Assembly (NCBI GenBank): GCA_015484845.1
Contig: WFUT01000010.1
Location: forward strand, 1 to 45,011
DNA length: 45,011 nt
Origin: Desulfobulbaceae bacterium
GTDB lineage: Bacteria; Desulfobacterota; Desulfobulbia; Desulfobulbales; Desulfobulbaceae
Direction: 5' to 3'
A program made the position numbers and the translations under genes. Below, piece after piece: positions 2,326 to 32,050 of the stretch (the first letter of the stretch is position 1; each line of letters opens with the position of its first letter). The notes beneath the pieces were generated by a model. That model was not told where the DNA came from and made no database searches. It saw only the letters and a list, made by a program, of their open reading frames with translations.

Positions 2326-3168
2326 TTACCGGATTTGACTCAGGGGACGCAGTCCGTCACGGGGATCCCGGCGCCAGGCGCGATCAGGCTCTTCCGAGGG
2401 TATGATCTTTTTTCCGGGGGCACCATCAGCCTCCATGCCGAGCCGGATCGTCTCGATCACCTCTGTGACTTTTTGCGGAAGCCAGCAATGGCCCAGGGGG
2501 TATTCGACACCCTGACCATCGATATCGAGATGGAACTCTATCATGGATGCCTTCCATCTGTGCACGGCCCGGTACATCACGGCCGGCGATACACTGTGAT
2601 CGGACCATCCGACCCGGCAACCGAAATGTTGCCGGAGTGTTTCGATGACCGCCAGGTTGCACTGGTCCACGGGCGTCGGGTAGGCGGAGACGCAGTGAAG
2701 GAGTGTGAGGTCCCGACAGCCCGCCGCCTGCAATGTCGTCACCGCCTCGTCTATTTCCTCCATGGTCGCCATGCCGGTGGAGAGAACAACGGGTTTGCCG
2801 GTCCTAGCGCAGGCGATCAGGAGATCTTTCCAGGGCAGCTCGTAGGACGCGATCTTGTAGAAGCTGACATACGGAGCGAGTTCGTTCACCGCTTCCAGGT
2901 AGAAGGGCGTACATGAAAATGCAATATCATGTTCTGCGCATTTTTCATGGAGAAGGGGAAGAAATTCTGTGGGTAATTCCCATTGTTTTCTTTTTCTATG
3001 TTCCGCACTTAGCTGCAGCACAGAGGGGGCAAAGAGCTTGTCGATCCGGAACAGCTGAAATTTAACCGCAGCACATCCTATTTGGGCAGCTGTCTCGATA
3101 AAGCGATAACAGCGCCCGAGATTCTGATTGTGGTTGCTGGATACCTCGGCGATAAATGTGACAGTCAT
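2326..3168 (-). CDS. NeuB-like N-acetylneuraminate/legionaminate synthase family protein, short form
   Basis: 280 residues when begun at the ATG whose ATGA overlaps the stop of the upstream gene; an open frame continues upstream only as a shadow of that gene. NeuB-type enzymes condense phosphoenolpyruvate with an N-acyl hexosamine to give a nine-carbon sugar acid. Visible TIM-barrel motifs are FIAEVSSNHNQ at the N-terminus, AVKFQLF, the FYKIASYEL strand, PVVLSTGMATMEE and GWSDHSVS near the C-terminus. The enzyme stops shortly after KKIIPSEEPDR with a WRRDPRDGLRPL tail. It therefore lacks the C-terminal SAF (antifreeze-like) domain that normally completes a NeuB of about 340 residues. The tail looks natural rather than frameshifted. 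With the SpsF/SpsG-like fusion upstream it forms part of a sialic-acid-like pathway that probably decorates flagellin. Confidence 0.85.
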   Translation of the reverse strand: MTVTFIAEVSSNHNQNLGRCYRFIETAAQIGCAAVKFQLFRIDKLFAPSVLQLSAEHRKRKQWELPTEFLPLLHEKCAEHDIAFSCTPFYLEAVNELAPYVSFYKIASYELPWKDLLIACARTGKPVVLSTGMATMEEIDEAVTTLQAAGCRDLTLLHCVSAYPTPVDQCNLAVIETLRQHFGCRVGWSDHSVSPAVMYRAVHRWKASMIEFHLDIDGQGVEYPLGHCWLPQKVTEVIETIRLGMEADGAPGKKIIPSEEPDRAWRRDPRDGLRPLSQIR

Positions 3169-4922
3169 GCGCAGGGTTGCTTCAGGAGAGAGTTTATCTT
3201 GCGGACAATGTTGGAGGTGCCGTCCCCAATGACCTGTCCTGTTTTCTCGACCAGGGCCTGATTGATGGTCCTGGAAAGTTCGTCCTGCGTTGCATCGGTG
3301 GGTACCACGATCTCCCTGAGACCGGTCTGCCTGTAAAAGCATCGGGCATCGCGGCAATGGTCAGCGGAAAACGCCCAGGTTACCGGGTAGGCACCCAGGG
3401 CAAGGGCCTCGTAAAAAGAAACGCCAAATCCGCTTAAAAACACACGGCTTCTCGCTATAAGGTAATGAAAATCAGGACGTTGCCCCTCAATAATGTGAAC
3501 AGTAAGATCAGTTGCTGCAGAAAATTTCTTGATGATATCTCTTTGCCACTCGTGATGCAGGTACGCCAGTAGATCAATGTTCTTGGGAATCTTCCGGTCC
3601 GTCAGCCTGCTGATTTCCCTGCGAAGTATCACATAGTCGCGTCCTGTAAGAATTTCAGGTTTCCCATCAGCGGACTGGCTTTCGGGAACTTGTCCTGTAA
3701 CACCAGGAATAATGACAAGGTCCGATTCCCTGGTCCAGTCATCAAGCCGGTCGATGATTACGACCCTTGAACTTTCGGGAAACCTCTGTCTCCACCCCGG
3801 TGGCAGATTGTTCTGGCAATTCAGGTCCAGGATAACCAGGTCAAAGGAGGCAAGCCAGGTGGTATTCCCGGGGCTGGAGAGACCAAGGAGTTCGACGGGA
3901 TTTTTTCCATCGTACATTGGCAGGGATACGGAGCGGTCTGTCGTGTCTTTATCCTTTGACAGTACCCGGAGTCCGACCGTCTCCAGGGAGTTTGTCGCCT
4001 CCTGGTCGGTTACCAGGAAGGTGACCGGCCATCCAAGCCGTTCCGTGATCTGCAACGCCAATTCACGGCTCCGCATGAGATGCCCGTAACCGTATTTTTC
4101 GCCGGCATCTACCACCATGAGGACCTTCCTGTCGATTTCTCCCACACCTTTCTGGTGGACATGGCTGTTGATGGTTAGAAGGGATTGATCCTGCCGCAGG
4201 AGGTTGACGGCCGCAGGAAGGCTGTAGGTGGAGCCGCTGGCTGCAAGGGTGTTGTACACTACATTATGGAATTCAAGATCCGCCCAGGTATCTATTGAAT
4301 AACGATGATGAAACGGGGCATAGAGGTCTTTTTGAAGCGCGATCCTATGACAGGTGAAAAGATCAGGACACTGGTGGAGGATCGGAAAATGGTGTTCCTT
4401 CAGAGCCGGCCGGTCCGACAGGTCATCGGCACGCTGCCAGGTCTTGATCCTGGCAACCGAGATACCCTGCAAGGCCGGCCGGTGGCCCTGGCTGTCTGGT
4501 TTGGCCGCGACAAAGTCTGCCTCCGGGTGGGACTTGAGTGACGAGATCAGCAGATCGATGGCCGGGGCATGGATTAATGGACAGTCGCCACTGACAAGCA
4601 CGCATATCTCCGCGAAGCATTTTTCGGCTGCCCGCCGCAACCGGGTGGTCACATGGTTAACGTCTCCAGGATACCTGTAGGTGGCTATTCCCTGCTTGTC
4701 GCTCCAGGAAAGAAGAAGGTCGTTTTCCGGCTCCGCTGATGTGGCCAGAACTATTTCGTCGACTTGCCGACATCTCCTGAGTTCCTCCAGAAGCCACTCC
4801 AGGAGCATTTTGCGCCCGATTTTTCTAAACTGCTTTCCTGGAAGCCTGGACGATCCGAGACGGGCCACAATAAAGGCCACTGTTCGTTCCGGCTTCAACG
4901 TGTTCCTGCTGCTCTCCTGCAT
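3165..4922 (-). CDS. SpsF-like cytidylyltransferase fused to SpsG/PseG-like glycosyl hydrolase-transferase
   Basis: 585 residues containing two enzymes of sialic-acid-type sugar biosynthesis. Residues about 12-250 are a cytidylyltransferase of the SpsF/NeuA family, with the CTP-binding loop RLGSSRLPGKQF at 21-32 and VLVSGDCPLI in the metal-site position. Residues about 265-585 resemble SpsG/PseG, a GT-B-fold UDP-sugar hydrolase: VVDAGEKYGYGHLMRS gives the G-x-G-H-x-x-R loop, and FLSGFGVSFYEALALGAYP is the C-terminal nucleotide-binding region. PseG releases UDP from the amino-sugar before NeuB acts, and CMP activation follows NeuB, so this protein would catalyse the steps on both sides of the adjacent synthase. 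The start is an ATG with AGCAGGG just upstream. The gene begins 111 bases after maf ends and overlaps the NeuB-like gene by 4 bases, implying translational coupling. Confidence 0.8.
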   Translation of the reverse strand: MQESSRNTLKPERTVAFIVARLGSSRLPGKQFRKIGRKMLLEWLLEELRRCRQVDEIVLATSAEPENDLLLSWSDKQGIATYRYPGDVNHVTTRLRRAAEKCFAEICVLVSGDCPLIHAPAIDLLISSLKSHPEADFVAAKPDSQGHRPALQGISVARIKTWQRADDLSDRPALKEHHFPILHQCPDLFTCHRIALQKDLYAPFHHRYSIDTWADLEFHNVVYNTLAASGSTYSLPAAVNLLRQDQSLLTINSHVHQKGVGEIDRKVLMVVDAGEKYGYGHLMRSRELALQITERLGWPVTFLVTDQEATNSLETVGLRVLSKDKDTTDRSVSLPMYDGKNPVELLGLSSPGNTTWLASFDLVILDLNCQNNLPPGWRQRFPESSRVVIIDRLDDWTRESDLVIIPGVTGQVPESQSADGKPEILTGRDYVILRREISRLTDRKIPKNIDLLAYLHHEWQRDIIKKFSAATDLTVHIIEGQRPDFHYLIARSRVFLSGFGVSFYEALALGAYPVTWAFSADHCRDARCFYRQTGLREIVVPTDATQDELSRTINQALVEKTGQVIGDGTSNIVRKINSLLKQPCA

Positions 4923-5033
4923 CCCTGCTCAGCTCAAGTTTTGATGTTGGATTGTCAGTGGAAAGTTGAAGCCGGGACCACATCACGCACCGTCAATTGT
5001 CTTCCACGCATTTTTACGGCTTTCCTAAAACAA

Positions 5034-7022
5034 CTAATCCAACTCCTTCACCGGCCATTCGAGTTGCTCAACCACGGCCCTGATCTTTTTCAGGCCGGAG
5101 CGATAAATCTCTTCCGCCATCTCCTGCTGATCGGCAAACAGCAATACCTTGTACCAGGCGACCAACAGGTGAAGAATAAACAGGATAAAGACTTCCGGCC
5201 GTCTGTCCCTCTCATCTTCCCGGTTCGCCATGACAGCAGCCAGTACTGCCCGGTCGACAACCTGGTTGAATTTCTTCCAGGTAAAAGTTTCGAGTTCCAG
5301 CCCACGGATCACATCTCTTTTCAACCCTTCAGCCACCTGACTTGAATCTTTGGCGTATGGTTTCCAATTTTTTCCTTTTTGAGCCGGTAAAAAAGCCTTC
5401 CTGATCCGATTGATATCATCCTGTTTGCGAGGATATTTTCGCAATTTAATGGCCTGGGACCGCCTGGCCCGTGCCCCCCTGACCCTGGCACCGTCGGACA
5501 GATTGTACACTGTCGTTTTATTTCCTGCCGCCTCAATGGCCTGCTCGATAACGATCCGCACATGAGTCAAAAAAGGCGTACTGGTGACAACATCCCGGTC
5601 TTTAGATGAGAAATTGGCCTCGACAACAATCTGCTGCATTTTTTCCAGGTAATCATCAACCGACCGTGCATCCGATCCCTGCTCCGGCTTGTCATATATG
5701 GTGGATCCGGCATGACTCTTATCGATAGAATAATAACCGAAATCGCAGCCAAGCAGGTAAATCTCCTTTGGCTGACACAGGCAGGCAAAGGAAAACGCCA
5801 TGGAGGTGCTGGAGGGCAGGACCCCGTGCAGGGGCATCGTAAAACGCACTGGCGCAACCTTGTCTCCTATGCCACAGAGCAGGAGTTCATTGAAATATCG
5901 CACTATCGACACCGGAGCATTGCACCCCGCAATCACTGGTATGTCCGGATCAAGACCAAGAGGGCTACGCAAACCTTGCTGAAGTAATTTCGTCTCCAGG
6001 GTGACCTGGAAATCAGGCCTGATTCCATGATGCAACAAAGGCCTGACCGCGCTGAACACTGCGAAAATAATCAGATTATCCTGGTTTGTCCTTAGCCACT
6101 CAAGATCATGATCAAGGGAAGGCCCTGATGCCACAACAGCAATCCTGGATTTTTCGGACAGACGGGGCCGGCTTGTCAGCAAAGGACACTGTTGCCTGAT
6201 ATTGGCCACAACCTGACGAATGGCATCATAATCGTGATCGAGCGGAAAGACCACGTTGGACATGGTGGCCTGATGCATGCGAAATGATTCGACCAGGTGC
6301 GGATTGTCCTGGCATTCATACCCTGGCAGAACACGGGTCCAGAGCTGACGGCTCACCGAGTAATTGCTGAAAAAATACCTTATCGCCTCGCTCTGAGGAT
6401 CAGGCCCGAGGGAAAACACCACCTCGGCCTGGCCGTTTATCTTCCGGTAATCAAGAAAATAACAGGAAACCTCAAACCGTTCCAGATCTGGCTCGACCAG
6501 AAGAATGTGACTCACCTCGGTACGAGAAAGATAGTAATCTATATGTAACCCGTGAAAAATACCGAGAAAAACAACTGGAGGAGAAAAACGGCGGCCATCA
6601 GGAAGCTCCTTGAGGTTGATCTGTTTGAGGGAAAAACGGATCAGGGAATCCGGGAACTCTGTCAGGAGCTGCTGGTACGTTGTTCGTAACGGCTTGCCGT
6701 GCAGTGGGTACCTGTCCATGGCAGGTATCTTGAAATTGCAGAGATCGATCCAGGTGTCATGGACCCAATCGCCCATCATGGCGGCAAACATATCCAACCC
6801 GGCTTCCGGGTGGGCCAGCTGACCGCTCTCTTCATGCGTTATTGACAGAAATTCCGGCGTAATATTCAACTGGTAAGGACATTTCTTTTTCCGGACAAGC
6901 GACAACAGGAAAGGATACCGCTGACGGAAAAATTCCATATTGCTCTCATATGTTTTCTGGAGAAGAAGCGGGCGTTCCTCTGGAGAGAGACATCGGAGCC
7001 TGTCTATCATTGACTGATTCAT
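5034..7022 (-). CDS. Maf-type motility accessory factor (DUF115), flagellin glycosyltransferase
   Basis: 662 residues from the ATG that overlaps the fliS stop as ATGA; a GTG two codons earlier is possible but less economical. The core, around residue 290 onward, is DUF115/MptE-like: IAVVASGPSLDHDLEWL is the nucleotide-binding glycine loop, followed by FAVFSAVRPLLHHGIRPDF and a strand leading to YLLGCDFGYYS. Maf proteins in Campylobacter, Helicobacter, Aeromonas and Clostridium transfer pseudaminic or legionaminic acid onto flagellin serines and threonines in the cytoplasm before export. The downstream genes for nonulosonic acid synthesis and the upstream fliS (flagellin chaperone) fit that role. 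No signal peptide or membrane segment is apparent. Because fliS is broken, the translational coupling from fliS into this gene is probably lost; expression may now depend on internal initiation. Confidence 0.85.
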   Translation of the reverse strand: MNQSMIDRLRCLSPEERPLLLQKTYESNMEFFRQRYPFLLSLVRKKKCPYQLNITPEFLSITHEESGQLAHPEAGLDMFAAMMGDWVHDTWIDLCNFKIPAMDRYPLHGKPLRTTYQQLLTEFPDSLIRFSLKQINLKELPDGRRFSPPVVFLGIFHGLHIDYYLSRTEVSHILLVEPDLERFEVSCYFLDYRKINGQAEVVFSLGPDPQSEAIRYFFSNYSVSRQLWTRVLPGYECQDNPHLVESFRMHQATMSNVVFPLDHDYDAIRQVVANIRQQCPLLTSRPRLSEKSRIAVVASGPSLDHDLEWLRTNQDNLIIFAVFSAVRPLLHHGIRPDFQVTLETKLLQQGLRSPLGLDPDIPVIAGCNAPVSIVRYFNELLLCGIGDKVAPVRFTMPLHGVLPSSTSMAFSFACLCQPKEIYLLGCDFGYYSIDKSHAGSTIYDKPEQGSDARSVDDYLEKMQQIVVEANFSSKDRDVVTSTPFLTHVRIVIEQAIEAAGNKTTVYNLSDGARVRGARARRSQAIKLRKYPRKQDDINRIRKAFLPAQKGKNWKPYAKDSSQVAEGLKRDVIRGLELETFTWKKFNQVVDRAVLAAVMANREDERDRRPEVFILFILHLLVAWYKVLLFADQQEMAEEIYRSGLKKIRAVVEQLEWPVKELD

Positions 7023-7710
7023 TTCCACAGGGTGGCTGCTATTTTGGTGTGCCCTGGAGCAGGATCGCTGTCCAGGTTTGGAGACCCCGGTTTCACCTGC
7101 TCGTTTCTGGCAAGAACTATGGCCTCGGCCCAGGTTTCGCGCAACTCCTTGAGCATCATCTTGACTATAGCCTTGAGTGGTTCAGGATCATTGTCCCCAT
7201 TGGCACTCATGAACTCTTTGGGCAGGTAATGATGCCGGGCGCCGAGGTTCTCGGCCAGGTTGGCATCCTGGAGGTGATCCAGGGTCGCATCGAGCTCGGA
7301 TATGATAGCCGAGGCCTTGTTTATATAATACCTAAATCCTGCAATTGGCAATTTTGCCGGAGATGCGAGGCATCAGGGGCGCAGACGTATAAGAATACTT
7401 CAAGCCCTTGATAACGATGCAGATTCGGTAAAATTGCCAATCCCGAATAACGAGAAAATGAAGAAAAAAAATCCTTCACACGGTCAGTGAGTCGAAAGGA
7501 ACGATCAAGTTCGTGTAATCCGCTGATATGGCAAAAAAATTTTTTTCTTCATTTTCGAAGTGCAGGATTTAGGTAATAGGCCCGCCTGGGGATATCATTG
7601 CTATCAATGGCCTTGACTGCCAAGGTCGTGCAGCGGATGGCGCCGTCATAAAGCATGAGCAGGAACTGTTCCGAAGTGGCACTGGCGATCTGGTTGGCGT
7701 ATCCGTTCAT
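7019..7710 (-). pseudogene. fliS: Flagellar export chaperone FliS, interrupted by a palindromic element
   Basis: Two halves of one FliS gene flank a 243-bp insertion. The 5' half starts at the ATG at 7710 and reads MNGYANQIASATSEQF, then LLMLYDGAIRCTTLAV and NDIPRRAYY, typical of FliS. The frame then runs into the element and stops at 7549, after 53 residues. The 3' half (from 7330 down to 7019) continues in register with YYINKASAIISELDATL and KMMLKELRETWAEAI. Removing the element and one copy of the TAATA duplication restores an uninterrupted 147-codon frame of normal FliS length. The 3' half has only a TTG inside the element as a possible start, so it is unlikely to be made. FliS binds the C-terminus of flagellin and prevents premature polymerisation, so its loss should impair filament assembly unless a second copy exists. 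Its start overlaps the preceding small gene by 4 bases, and its stop overlaps maf by 4 bases. Confidence 0.92.
7331..7573. mobile_element. 243-bp MITE-like element inserted in fliS
   Basis: The element begins CCTAAATCCTGCA (7331-7343) and ends with its exact reverse complement (7561-7573). It is flanked by the direct repeat TAATA at 7326-7330 and 7574-7578, the expected target duplication, because excision restores fliS. Inside are two further inverted repeats. One is a 16-bp pair at 7344-7359 / 7426-7441 with one mismatch. The other is an A/T-tract pair at 7454-7472 / 7539-7556 with one indel. Each encloses 66 bases. No open frame long enough for a transposase is present, so it would move in trans. 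The CCT-start ends and AT-rich 5-bp duplication resemble IS1380-family ends such as ISEcp1; that family assignment is inference. Two shorter relatives lie at 27160-27229 and 31986-32021. Confidence 0.9.
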
Positions 7711-8006
7711 GATACGTGGTGCCTGCCGCCAAGCGAAAGGACAAAGGCCTCATTGACCGCGAACCTTTTGCCCGGGGTAAACGGCGTCTTCCTGCCGCCT
7801 TCGCGCATCACGACCGTGTTGATGATCACCGGCGCATCGCGGCATATGATCTGGACCCTGGAGATATCCCGGTTCACCGGCACCTCCTTGGCGCCGCCGC
7901 CGGCATGCTGCTGCGCAATCTCGGTCCAGGAAAAGGCCGCACCCGGGAAGAGCAGGAGACAGGAAAGGAAAAGAAAGGGGAAAAAGAGAGATTTCCGGTA
8001 CAACAT
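7707..8006 (-). CDS. Small exported protein of unknown function
   Basis: 99 residues with a clear signal peptide: MLYRKS, then a hydrophobic stretch rich in Phe and Leu, ending at an A-F-S cleavage region near residue 26. A strong ribosome site (AGGAGG, five bases before the ATG) supports the start. The mature part is predicted beta-rich: VQIICRDAPVIINTVVM, then a polar turn and AFVLSLGGRHHVS at the end. The pattern loosely resembles DUF2541-type secreted proteins, which usually continue past this point, so the C-terminus may be truncated; this is a weak inference. Its stop overlaps the fliS start as ATGA. The unusual partnership of a secreted protein with fliS, at the boundary between the high-GC backbone and the lower-GC glycan island, may mark a recombination junction. 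Confidence 0.6.
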   Translation of the reverse strand: MLYRKSLFFPFLFLSCLLLFPGAAFSWTEIAQQHAGGGAKEVPVNRDISRVQIICRDAPVIINTVVMREGGRKTPFTPGKRFAVNEAFVLSLGGRHHVS

Positions 8007-8060
8007 GGGGCCTCCTTCTGTTGACAGGCAGGGACGGCCGCAACGGTGGGGACAAGACCG

Positions 8061-8714
8061 TCAGATGATATCCTGGATCCGGCTCCTGAACTCGGACGCC
8101 AGCTCCTCGTCACCGATCTCCTCGGCGAGCATGGCGGCCAGTTCCGAGAGGCGGGCCGGGATGACCGGGCCGTTTGCGCGCCATTTTTCGAGAAAATCCT
8201 GCATGACCACCTCGGCGACGGGACCGATGGCGCCGGCCAGGGCCTGCTCGATGTCACGGAGATAGCCTTCCATCTCCAGGTCCGTACCCGCCGCGTCGGT
8301 TTCGCTCTCCTGGCCGCTGGTCGGAGCAGCATCGTTTTCCGGCTCCGGCCCGGTCTCCCCGCCGCGGCCGGCGAGGTTGTCACACATGTCGGCAACGAGC
8401 ATGCCGGCCGTGGTCGCGATCAGCGAACAGTTGGCCTGGGTCTCGCAGATGGTCATCAGGATGGCCCCGTTGTCCAGGGGGATGCCCACCACCGTGTACC
8501 TGTCGAACCGAAAATGGCTCGAGCGGACAGAAAGACCGCACATGCCCCCCATCTGGACCAGGCGCACAAGGTGCATGCCCACGTCCCGGAACATCTCCGC
8601 CGTGAGCGGCGAGTCCAGGTCCCGGCACAGGGGACCCCTGTGCCGGTCAAAGACGCAGGAACCGGTGACGCCGGGAATGGCGGCGATCTCCCTGAGCAGC
8701 TTCTCCATGGACAT
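8061..8714 (-). CDS. Roadblock/LC7 domain protein
   Basis: 217 residues from an ATG that overlaps the stop of the upstream gene by one base (TGATG); a GTG one codon earlier (8717) is an alternative. Residues 1-110 resemble the roadblock/LC7 fold: a helix MEKLLREIAAIPGVTGSC, the strand-turn VFDRHRGPLCRDL, then HLVRLVQMGG and VVGIPLDNGAILMTICE, the central sheet of that fold. The linker from about 115 to 150 is acidic and low in complexity (GETGPEPENDAAPTSG). The C-terminal helix region GAIGPVAEVVMQDFLEKW is not recognised. Bacterial roadblock proteins usually act as co-regulators of small Ras-like GTPases such as MglA, but no such GTPase is in this window. It is paired with another roadblock-like protein immediately upstream, so the two may form a heteromer. 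Confidence 0.75.
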   Translation of the reverse strand: MSMEKLLREIAAIPGVTGSCVFDRHRGPLCRDLDSPLTAEMFRDVGMHLVRLVQMGGMCGLSVRSSHFRFDRYTVVGIPLDNGAILMTICETQANCSLIATTAGMLVADMCDNLAGRGGETGPEPENDAAPTSGQESETDAAGTDLEMEGYLRDIEQALAGAIGPVAEVVMQDFLEKWRANGPVIPARLSELAAMLAEEIGDEELASEFRSRIQDII

Positions 8715-27126: not shown

Positions 27127-27155
27127 TTGACAAGTCACCGCCCAATGGCAATAGT
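27127..27155 (+). promoter_or_regulatory. Possible sigma-70 promoter upstream of the usp gene
   Basis: TTGACA (27127-27132), 17 bases, AATAGT (27150-27155). The -35 is perfect and the -10 matches only in part. It lies seven bases after the LPGS-type gene and ~250 bases upstream of the universal stress gene, with a palindromic repeat between them. Confidence 0.35.
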
Positions 27156-27159
27156 CTTA

Positions 27160-27229
27160 CCTGAATCCTGCACCGCTGCGGCCCCGATGCCCCGCGTCTC
27201 CGGCGCACCCGCCGACTGCAGGATCCGGG
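27160..27229. mobile_element. 70-bp MITE-like relative of the fliS element
   Basis: Ends are CCTGAATCCTGCA (27160-27172) and TGCAGGATCCGGG (27217-27229); 11 of 13 positions pair. The flanks are TCTTA (27155-27159) and TCTTT (27230-27234), a 4/5 match that fits an aged 5-bp target duplication. The 44-base GC-rich core (CCGCTGCGGCCCC...) is unlike the AT-rich core of the copy at 7331-7573. It lies in the 284-base region between the LPGS-type gene and the universal stress gene. The rest of that region holds only the candidate promoter and unassigned GC-rich sequence. Confidence 0.75.
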
Positions 27230-31951: not shown

Positions 31952-31985
31952 GGATACGCCACAGCAACGGGGACAGTGCCTGTAA

Positions 31986-32021
31986 CCTGAATCCTGCAAA
32001 TTGCCAATTGCAGGATTTAGG
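31986..32021. mobile_element. 36-bp minimal MITE-like palindrome
   Basis: CCTGAATCCTGCA (31986-31998) and TGCAGGATTTAGG (32009-32021) pair at 12 of 13 positions, with only ten bases between. TGTAA lies directly on each side (31981-31985 and 32022-32026), a perfect 5-bp duplication. On the minus strand the first 24 bases match the left end of the fliS element, including AATTGGCAATTT beyond the terminal repeat. It looks like two ends joined with the centre lost, downstream of the MscK-like gene. Confidence 0.85.
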
Positions 32022-32050
32022 TGTAATTAATCCACTCTGTGGTAATTCTG

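Follow-up and report, generated by a model that had tools for sequence, protein, structure and literature searches.

A short MITE-type element with a phylum-wide covarying hairpin interrupts a second fliS gene in a Desulfobulbaceae bacterium

In the genome of a sulfur-cycle bacterium of the Desulfobulbaceae (GenBank assembly GCA_015484845.1), a second fliS gene is interrupted by a 243-bp element whose internal hairpin recurs across the phylum. The whole stretch of DNA that was analysed, the window, comprises 45,011 nucleotides (contig WFUT01000010.1, positions 1 to 45,011). The explanation that best accounts for the observations taken together, and which we consider very probable, is that the element is a MITE of a phylum-wide family, moved by an IS1380-family transposase into a spare fliS gene that had itself been transferred. 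Where the first-pass annotation of this DNA implied a loss of flagella, the analysis points instead to a redundant fliS, probably acquired by transfer, that is decaying.

The element and its insertion site

The element occupies positions 7331–7573 and is inserted in the fliS reading frame. Its terminal inverted repeats (TIRs) are 13 bp long and perfect, the right one at 7561–7573 (minus strand) being the exact reverse complement of the left one, CCTAAATCCTGCA, at 7331–7343 (plus strand). An exact 5-bp target-site duplication, TAATA, lies on both flanks, at 7326–7330 and 7574–7578. Joining the flanks after removal of the element and one TAATA restores an open 147-codon FliS frame. On all these points, the first-pass annotation was correct and its coordinates were exact. 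It had also described the element as palindromic, which is true of the inverted ends but not of the whole, since the layout is that of a TIR stem enclosing two separate hairpin arms.

Arm A, at 7344–7441, is a conserved covarying hairpin in which the plus strand is the structured one, as judged by the covariance model match, the covariation and the strand asymmetry described below. Arm B, at 7454–7556 (plus strand), is a second long palindromic arm that runs from GAAAATGAAG to CTTCATTTTC and has a variable interior. Between the two, family alignments place a short linker hairpin of the CCCGNAGGG type, which in this copy (7442–7452, plus strand) is degenerate (CCCGAATAACG). At 243 bp, the element is short and contains no transposase-sized open reading frame.

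The window holds two further traces of such sequences. A minimal relic of 36 bp at 31986–32021 has the same TIRs, which nearly abut each other, and is flanked by a TGTAA duplication of its own (31981–31985 and 32022–32026); it is the smallest form of the element family. On the minus strand, the arm A model has a further weak match at 27130–27229 (19 bits, E 0.011), which may be due to chance.

Copies in the host genome

The host genome is a draft (233 contigs, 97 % complete) in which a number of contigs end in this repeat. About 40 places match the element at 85–100 % identity over most of its length, 39 of the copies being near-full. With up to one mismatch allowed, 201 occurrences of the TIR were counted, but just 2 of a reversed-pattern control. 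These counts, together with the exact 5-bp duplications that flank 25 of the 39 near-full copies, exclude a chance origin of the TIR and the element. The duplications are mostly of the form TNNNA, 23 beginning with T and 24 ending with A. The copies are modular and come as full elements (~243 bp), with arm B only (~154 bp), with arm A only (~131 bp) or as relics of 36–56 bp. Almost all the other copies in this genome are intergenic or lie at gene ends. The surrounding genes were called by a rough codon-score method, and where automated calls had put several copies inside genes, reading of the sequence showed most of them to lie upstream, in antisense or at the end of a gene.

Judged by its sequence, the element is a MITE, i.e., a non-autonomous mini-transposon: short, non-coding, bounded by TIRs and a target duplication, multi-copy, with an empty site in a relative, and presumably moved in trans. 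A candidate autonomous element, delimited by two TIRs 2.0 kb apart on contig C198, was rejected; host genes lie between the TIRs, which belong to two separate partial copies.

A candidate transposase

Neither the element nor the host genome, at 97 % completeness, yielded an IS1380-family transposase (PF13701), so that the mover has to be sought in relatives. Members of the same family of bacteria carry insertion sequences (IS) of the IS1380 family, to which ISEcp1 also belongs. They are about 1.67–1.69 kb long, generate 5-bp duplications and have ends that match those of the MITE over 13–16 bp. Genome G067 contains such an IS (loci L120 and L145) with 13-bp ends identical to CCTAAATCCTGCA and 5-bp duplications. 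In G057 (L121), the IS has CCTAAATCCTGCA ends, one of them with 1 mismatch, and a 5-bp duplication, and G015 (L129) has a decayed element with the same ends. In G067, a single chromosome carries this IS in 23 nearly identical copies with the exact ends of the MITE.

The MITE and these IS have only their ends in common, and no match to arm A was found in the 21 IS loci examined. The ends therefore follow the IS, while the interior does not derive from it. Mobilisation in trans by an IS1380-type transposase is the best reading of how the element moves, based as it is on the ends of IS in relatives. An IS1380-family DDE transposase would have recognised the 13–16-bp ends of the MITE and produced the 5-bp TNNNA duplication. 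IS1247, a member of the same family, has inverted repeats of 16/13 and a direct repeat of 5 (PMC3281130), thus resembling the MITE in end length and in the 5-bp duplication, whereas the MITE lacks a transposase gene and the IS loci examined lack arm A.

Phylum-wide conservation of arm A

An alignment of arm A from relatives reveals covariation. With a model built on these relatives (R1), arm A was detected within the class in 82 of 258 genomes and 35 of 69 genera. In a broader alignment of 33 sequences, 29 of the 33 base pairs show double compensatory changes, and 91.8 % of the cells are paired. Shuffling lowers this share to 71.4 %, and displacing the partners by one to three columns leaves no more than 38 %. 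The model derived from this alignment (R2) detected arm A in 48 of the 395 genomes of a phylum sample (39 of 246 genera), many of the matches having E values below 1e-20; the genomes surveyed are mostly draft assemblies. In the window, the R2 match extends over 7331–7458 with 140 bits. Arm A, thus conserved throughout the phylum, has internal loops that are non-palindromic. The number of matches varies greatly between genomes: 86 in the host genome, none in G001 of the same genus, and fourteen, of a divergent type, in G006, which belongs to another genus.

Full elements in other genomes measure mostly 244–259 bp, and 49 of 66 are flanked by exact 5-bp duplications. A whole-element alignment of 35 sequences supports 64 pairs, 44 of them with double changes, at 94.4 % paired cells. 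Its fold consists of a TIR stem enclosing arm A, the short CCCGNAGGG hairpin and arm B. Searches of Rfam at gathering and relaxed thresholds returned nothing credible for the element, and plasmids, phages and viral contigs gave no match to the family.

Two variant forms were encountered in the course of the survey. L095 and other copies in G015 form a subfamily whose arm A stem contains an additional ~16 bp. L214, L216 and L217 are arm-A-like hairpins that lack the usual TIRs, end in CGCTTAC and abut apparent stop codons; they perhaps constitute a separate REP-like branch.

The two strands of arm A are not equivalent. Outside two conserved G-U columns, G-U cells outnumber A-C cells by 71 to 20, and the consensus folds at -34.5 kcal/mol on the plus strand versus -15.1 kcal/mol on the other. 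These figures are to be read with the limits that the structure was derived on the plus strand, that the sequences are related, and that a structure derived on the minus strand gives 33 to 45. Arm B shows no such asymmetry (26 G-U versus 23 A-C cells). The cell counts and folding energies of arm A suggest that selection acts on only one of its strands, either as RNA or as single-stranded DNA. Arm A would serve the propagation of the element itself.

Could the element have arisen by ordinary deletion from a single IS1380 element, with a leftover interior and with palindromic arms that only DNA processes such as arm-to-arm correction maintain? An origin of this kind would agree with the restriction of the likeness to the ends and with the absence of strand asymmetry in arm B. 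However, it does not sit well with the lack of anything like arm A in the 21 IS loci, with the phylum-wide conservation of arm A, non-palindromic internal loops included, or with its strand asymmetry in both pairing and folding energy. We regard it as unlikely, if still a serious contender.

A second possibility is that elements of this kind are not selfish DNA but have been domesticated as cis-acting RNA structures, which would act on neighbouring genes as 3' UTR stabilisers or terminators. The mostly intergenic location of the copies and the contact of some hairpin-only relatives (L214, L216 and L217) with apparent stop codons would be in keeping with such a role. A bias in orientation was considered as a sign of cis regulation and rejected: the copies in the host genome are co-directional with genes in 9 cases and opposite in 2, but the figures for ten other genomes are 9 and 18. 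Overall, orientation relative to genes is unbiased, and a role for the neighbouring genes is therefore not favoured. Since the duplications and the matching TIRs moreover show transposition, domestication appears improbable.

The same hairpin between different ends

The same arm A is found between TIRs of at least five types, among them CCTAAATCCTGCA, CCCAGATTATGCA/CCCGGATTATGCA, CCTGAATTTTGCA, CCCGGATTTCTCA, CCTAAATTGAGCG and CCCTAACGTTGCA. Two types can occur within one genome, as exemplified by L283 and L286 in G285. The ends of IS1380-family elements match other TIR variants in G133, G321, G608, G497 and G613; the IS of G133, for instance, has CCCGGATTTCTCA ends and CTAA/CTAG duplications. 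In G133 and G613, the IS ends match the TIR type of other genomes and not that of the MITEs listed for the same genome.

The usual view of MITEs is that of short-lived remnants, each left by a single IS element and restricted to a few species. A fold that is conserved across a phylum, combined with ends that track IS1380 subgroups, suggests instead a long-lived parasite of transposases with a structure under selection. The MITE in the window would be one local form of this phylum-wide family, in which the TIRs of whichever IS1380 subgroup is at hand surround arms A and B. We propose, tentatively and in the awareness that it may well be wrong, that arm A functions as a structured, strand-specific RNA or single-stranded DNA maintained by a phylum-wide selfish element that exchanges its ends to exploit the IS1380-type transposase of its host.

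An intact operon gene and a decaying second fliS

According to the first-pass annotation, the insertion was recent, had left an undecayed coding remnant and should abolish a flagellin chaperone. A search of the genome for a second fliS, however, located an intact one encoding 148 aa on contig C179, where it is part of a canonical fliC-fliC-flaG-fliD-fliS operon; fliW, flgL and flgK are found further on along this contig (names given by sequence reading). The predicted abolition of the chaperone is thus contradicted. In the interrupted gene, the 5' part (7574–7711, minus strand, ATG at 7709–7711) continues into the element, where a stop codon soon ends it, while the 3' part (7019–7330, minus strand) has lost the normal stop and now ends against the start of a Maf gene. 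Both fragments score over the cut-off of PF02561. In a phylogenetic tree, the window fliS does not group with the operon copy of its own genome but with the single fliS of G006 (96/91 support). An empty-site allele was looked for among relatives and is provided by this very gene, which has a single TAATA, no element and 90 % identity across the joined site.

Several observations bear on the state of the interrupted gene. At 14 of 66 positions that are invariant in six other FliS, the window protein is changed or has lost the residue, compared with 0–6 in the others. These losses include an in-frame deletion of five codons; the stop has moved as well. The dN/dS of the window gene relative to G006 is 0.45, whereas a comparison of the G000 and G002 operon copies gives 0.11. 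The element copy itself is 5.4 % diverged from the family consensus and ranks 29 of 39, the youngest copies being at 1.7 %. A second assembly (contig G073:C184) has the same insertion and two 1-bp deletions in fliS, of which one hits the start codon and the other lies within the gene; no indels occur along the Maf and Pse stretch of that contig. The lost residues, the dN/dS value, the divergence of the copy and the deletions in the sister contig together overturn the notion of an undecayed, recently hit gene: the insertion is not evidently recent, and from its sequence the window fliS is a pseudogene whose function is judged lost.

The gene was presumably dispensable, given the intact operon copy. 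Since this copy remained in the main flagellar operon, the insertion would have been tolerated and the second copy left to decay. The location of nearly all other copies between genes or at gene ends fits the view that the one in fliS survives because the gene is spare. That a recent insertion has only just inactivated the organism's fliS, and with it flagellin export, is hardly credible, for the exact duplication and the open joined frame are outweighed by the intact gene in a canonical operon, the 5.4 % divergence of the element, the loss of conserved FliS residues and the presence of the same insertion in a strain whose copy has been inactivated by additional changes.

The glycosylation island and its junction

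The second fliS belongs to an island at 2342–7713, delimited by the contrast in identity to G006 and G001, which also contains Pse/Neu genes and a second Maf gene (5034–7028, minus strand). Over 2342–7024, the larger blocks are 91–95 % identical to G006, although this is another genus, and the fliS pieces reach 88–95 %, while the same-genus G001 shows 70–76 % in the Maf and Pse/Neu blocks. The relation is reversed from 7714 on, with 88–98 % identity to the same-genus G002 and 67–77 % to G006. The junction between the acquired island and native sequence falls at 7698–7714; its native side is 98 % identical to G002 over 7714–8212, and it cuts the tail of an exported-protein gene (7707–8006) that is complete in G002. 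The pieces of the island are apart or inverted in G006, hence the island has been rearranged. It was likely acquired from a G006-like donor, the direction of transfer being inferred. The MITE would then have landed in a second fliS that was cut off from its operon and carried on a flagellin-glycosylation island from a G006-like lineage.

The contig from the second assembly (G073:C184, locus L218) is 3,581 bp long, 98.9 % identical to window positions 4614–8195, and spans both the junction and the insertion. It sits in the bin of another genus and is probably misbinned or transferred. An artefact of metagenome assembly could in principle mimic both the fliS interruption and the junction in a draft of 233 contigs, a number of which end in this repeat, but with a separately assembled contig spanning the two and differing at 38 scattered positions, such an accident is extremely unlikely.

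Relation to described elements

MITEs as such are already known; what appears to be new is the conserved internal fold and the switching of ends. No literature was found on these sequences or on such elements in this bacterial group, and the family has apparently not been described before. Prokaryotic MITEs are short, non-coding, multi-copy, intergenic and hairpin-forming, with TIRs and a target duplication (PMC10969869). The element in the window shares all these general features but differs in that its fold has been preserved throughout a phylum, with extensive covariation, and that its TIRs differ between lineages and even within a genome.

Two known repeats come close. Chunjie, a MITE of Geobacter (Geotalea) uraniireducens, is 235 bp long, has 37 further copies, TIRs and direct repeats, and is intergenic (PMC10969869). 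Compared by description only, it resembles the window element in size, TIRs, repeats and intergenic copies, comes from the same phylum in NCBI taxonomy, and may be a member of the family. The MRSC-65-2 mobile/repeat motif, of the MRSC class, is likewise multi-copy with a covarying long stem, is thought to be selfish and has a conserved UYCCGG repeat (PMC11109978); set against this published description, the consensus of arm A contains no such repeat. In kind, the family can also be likened to ERIC and REP/BIME of enterobacteria, which are dispersed structured repeats as well.
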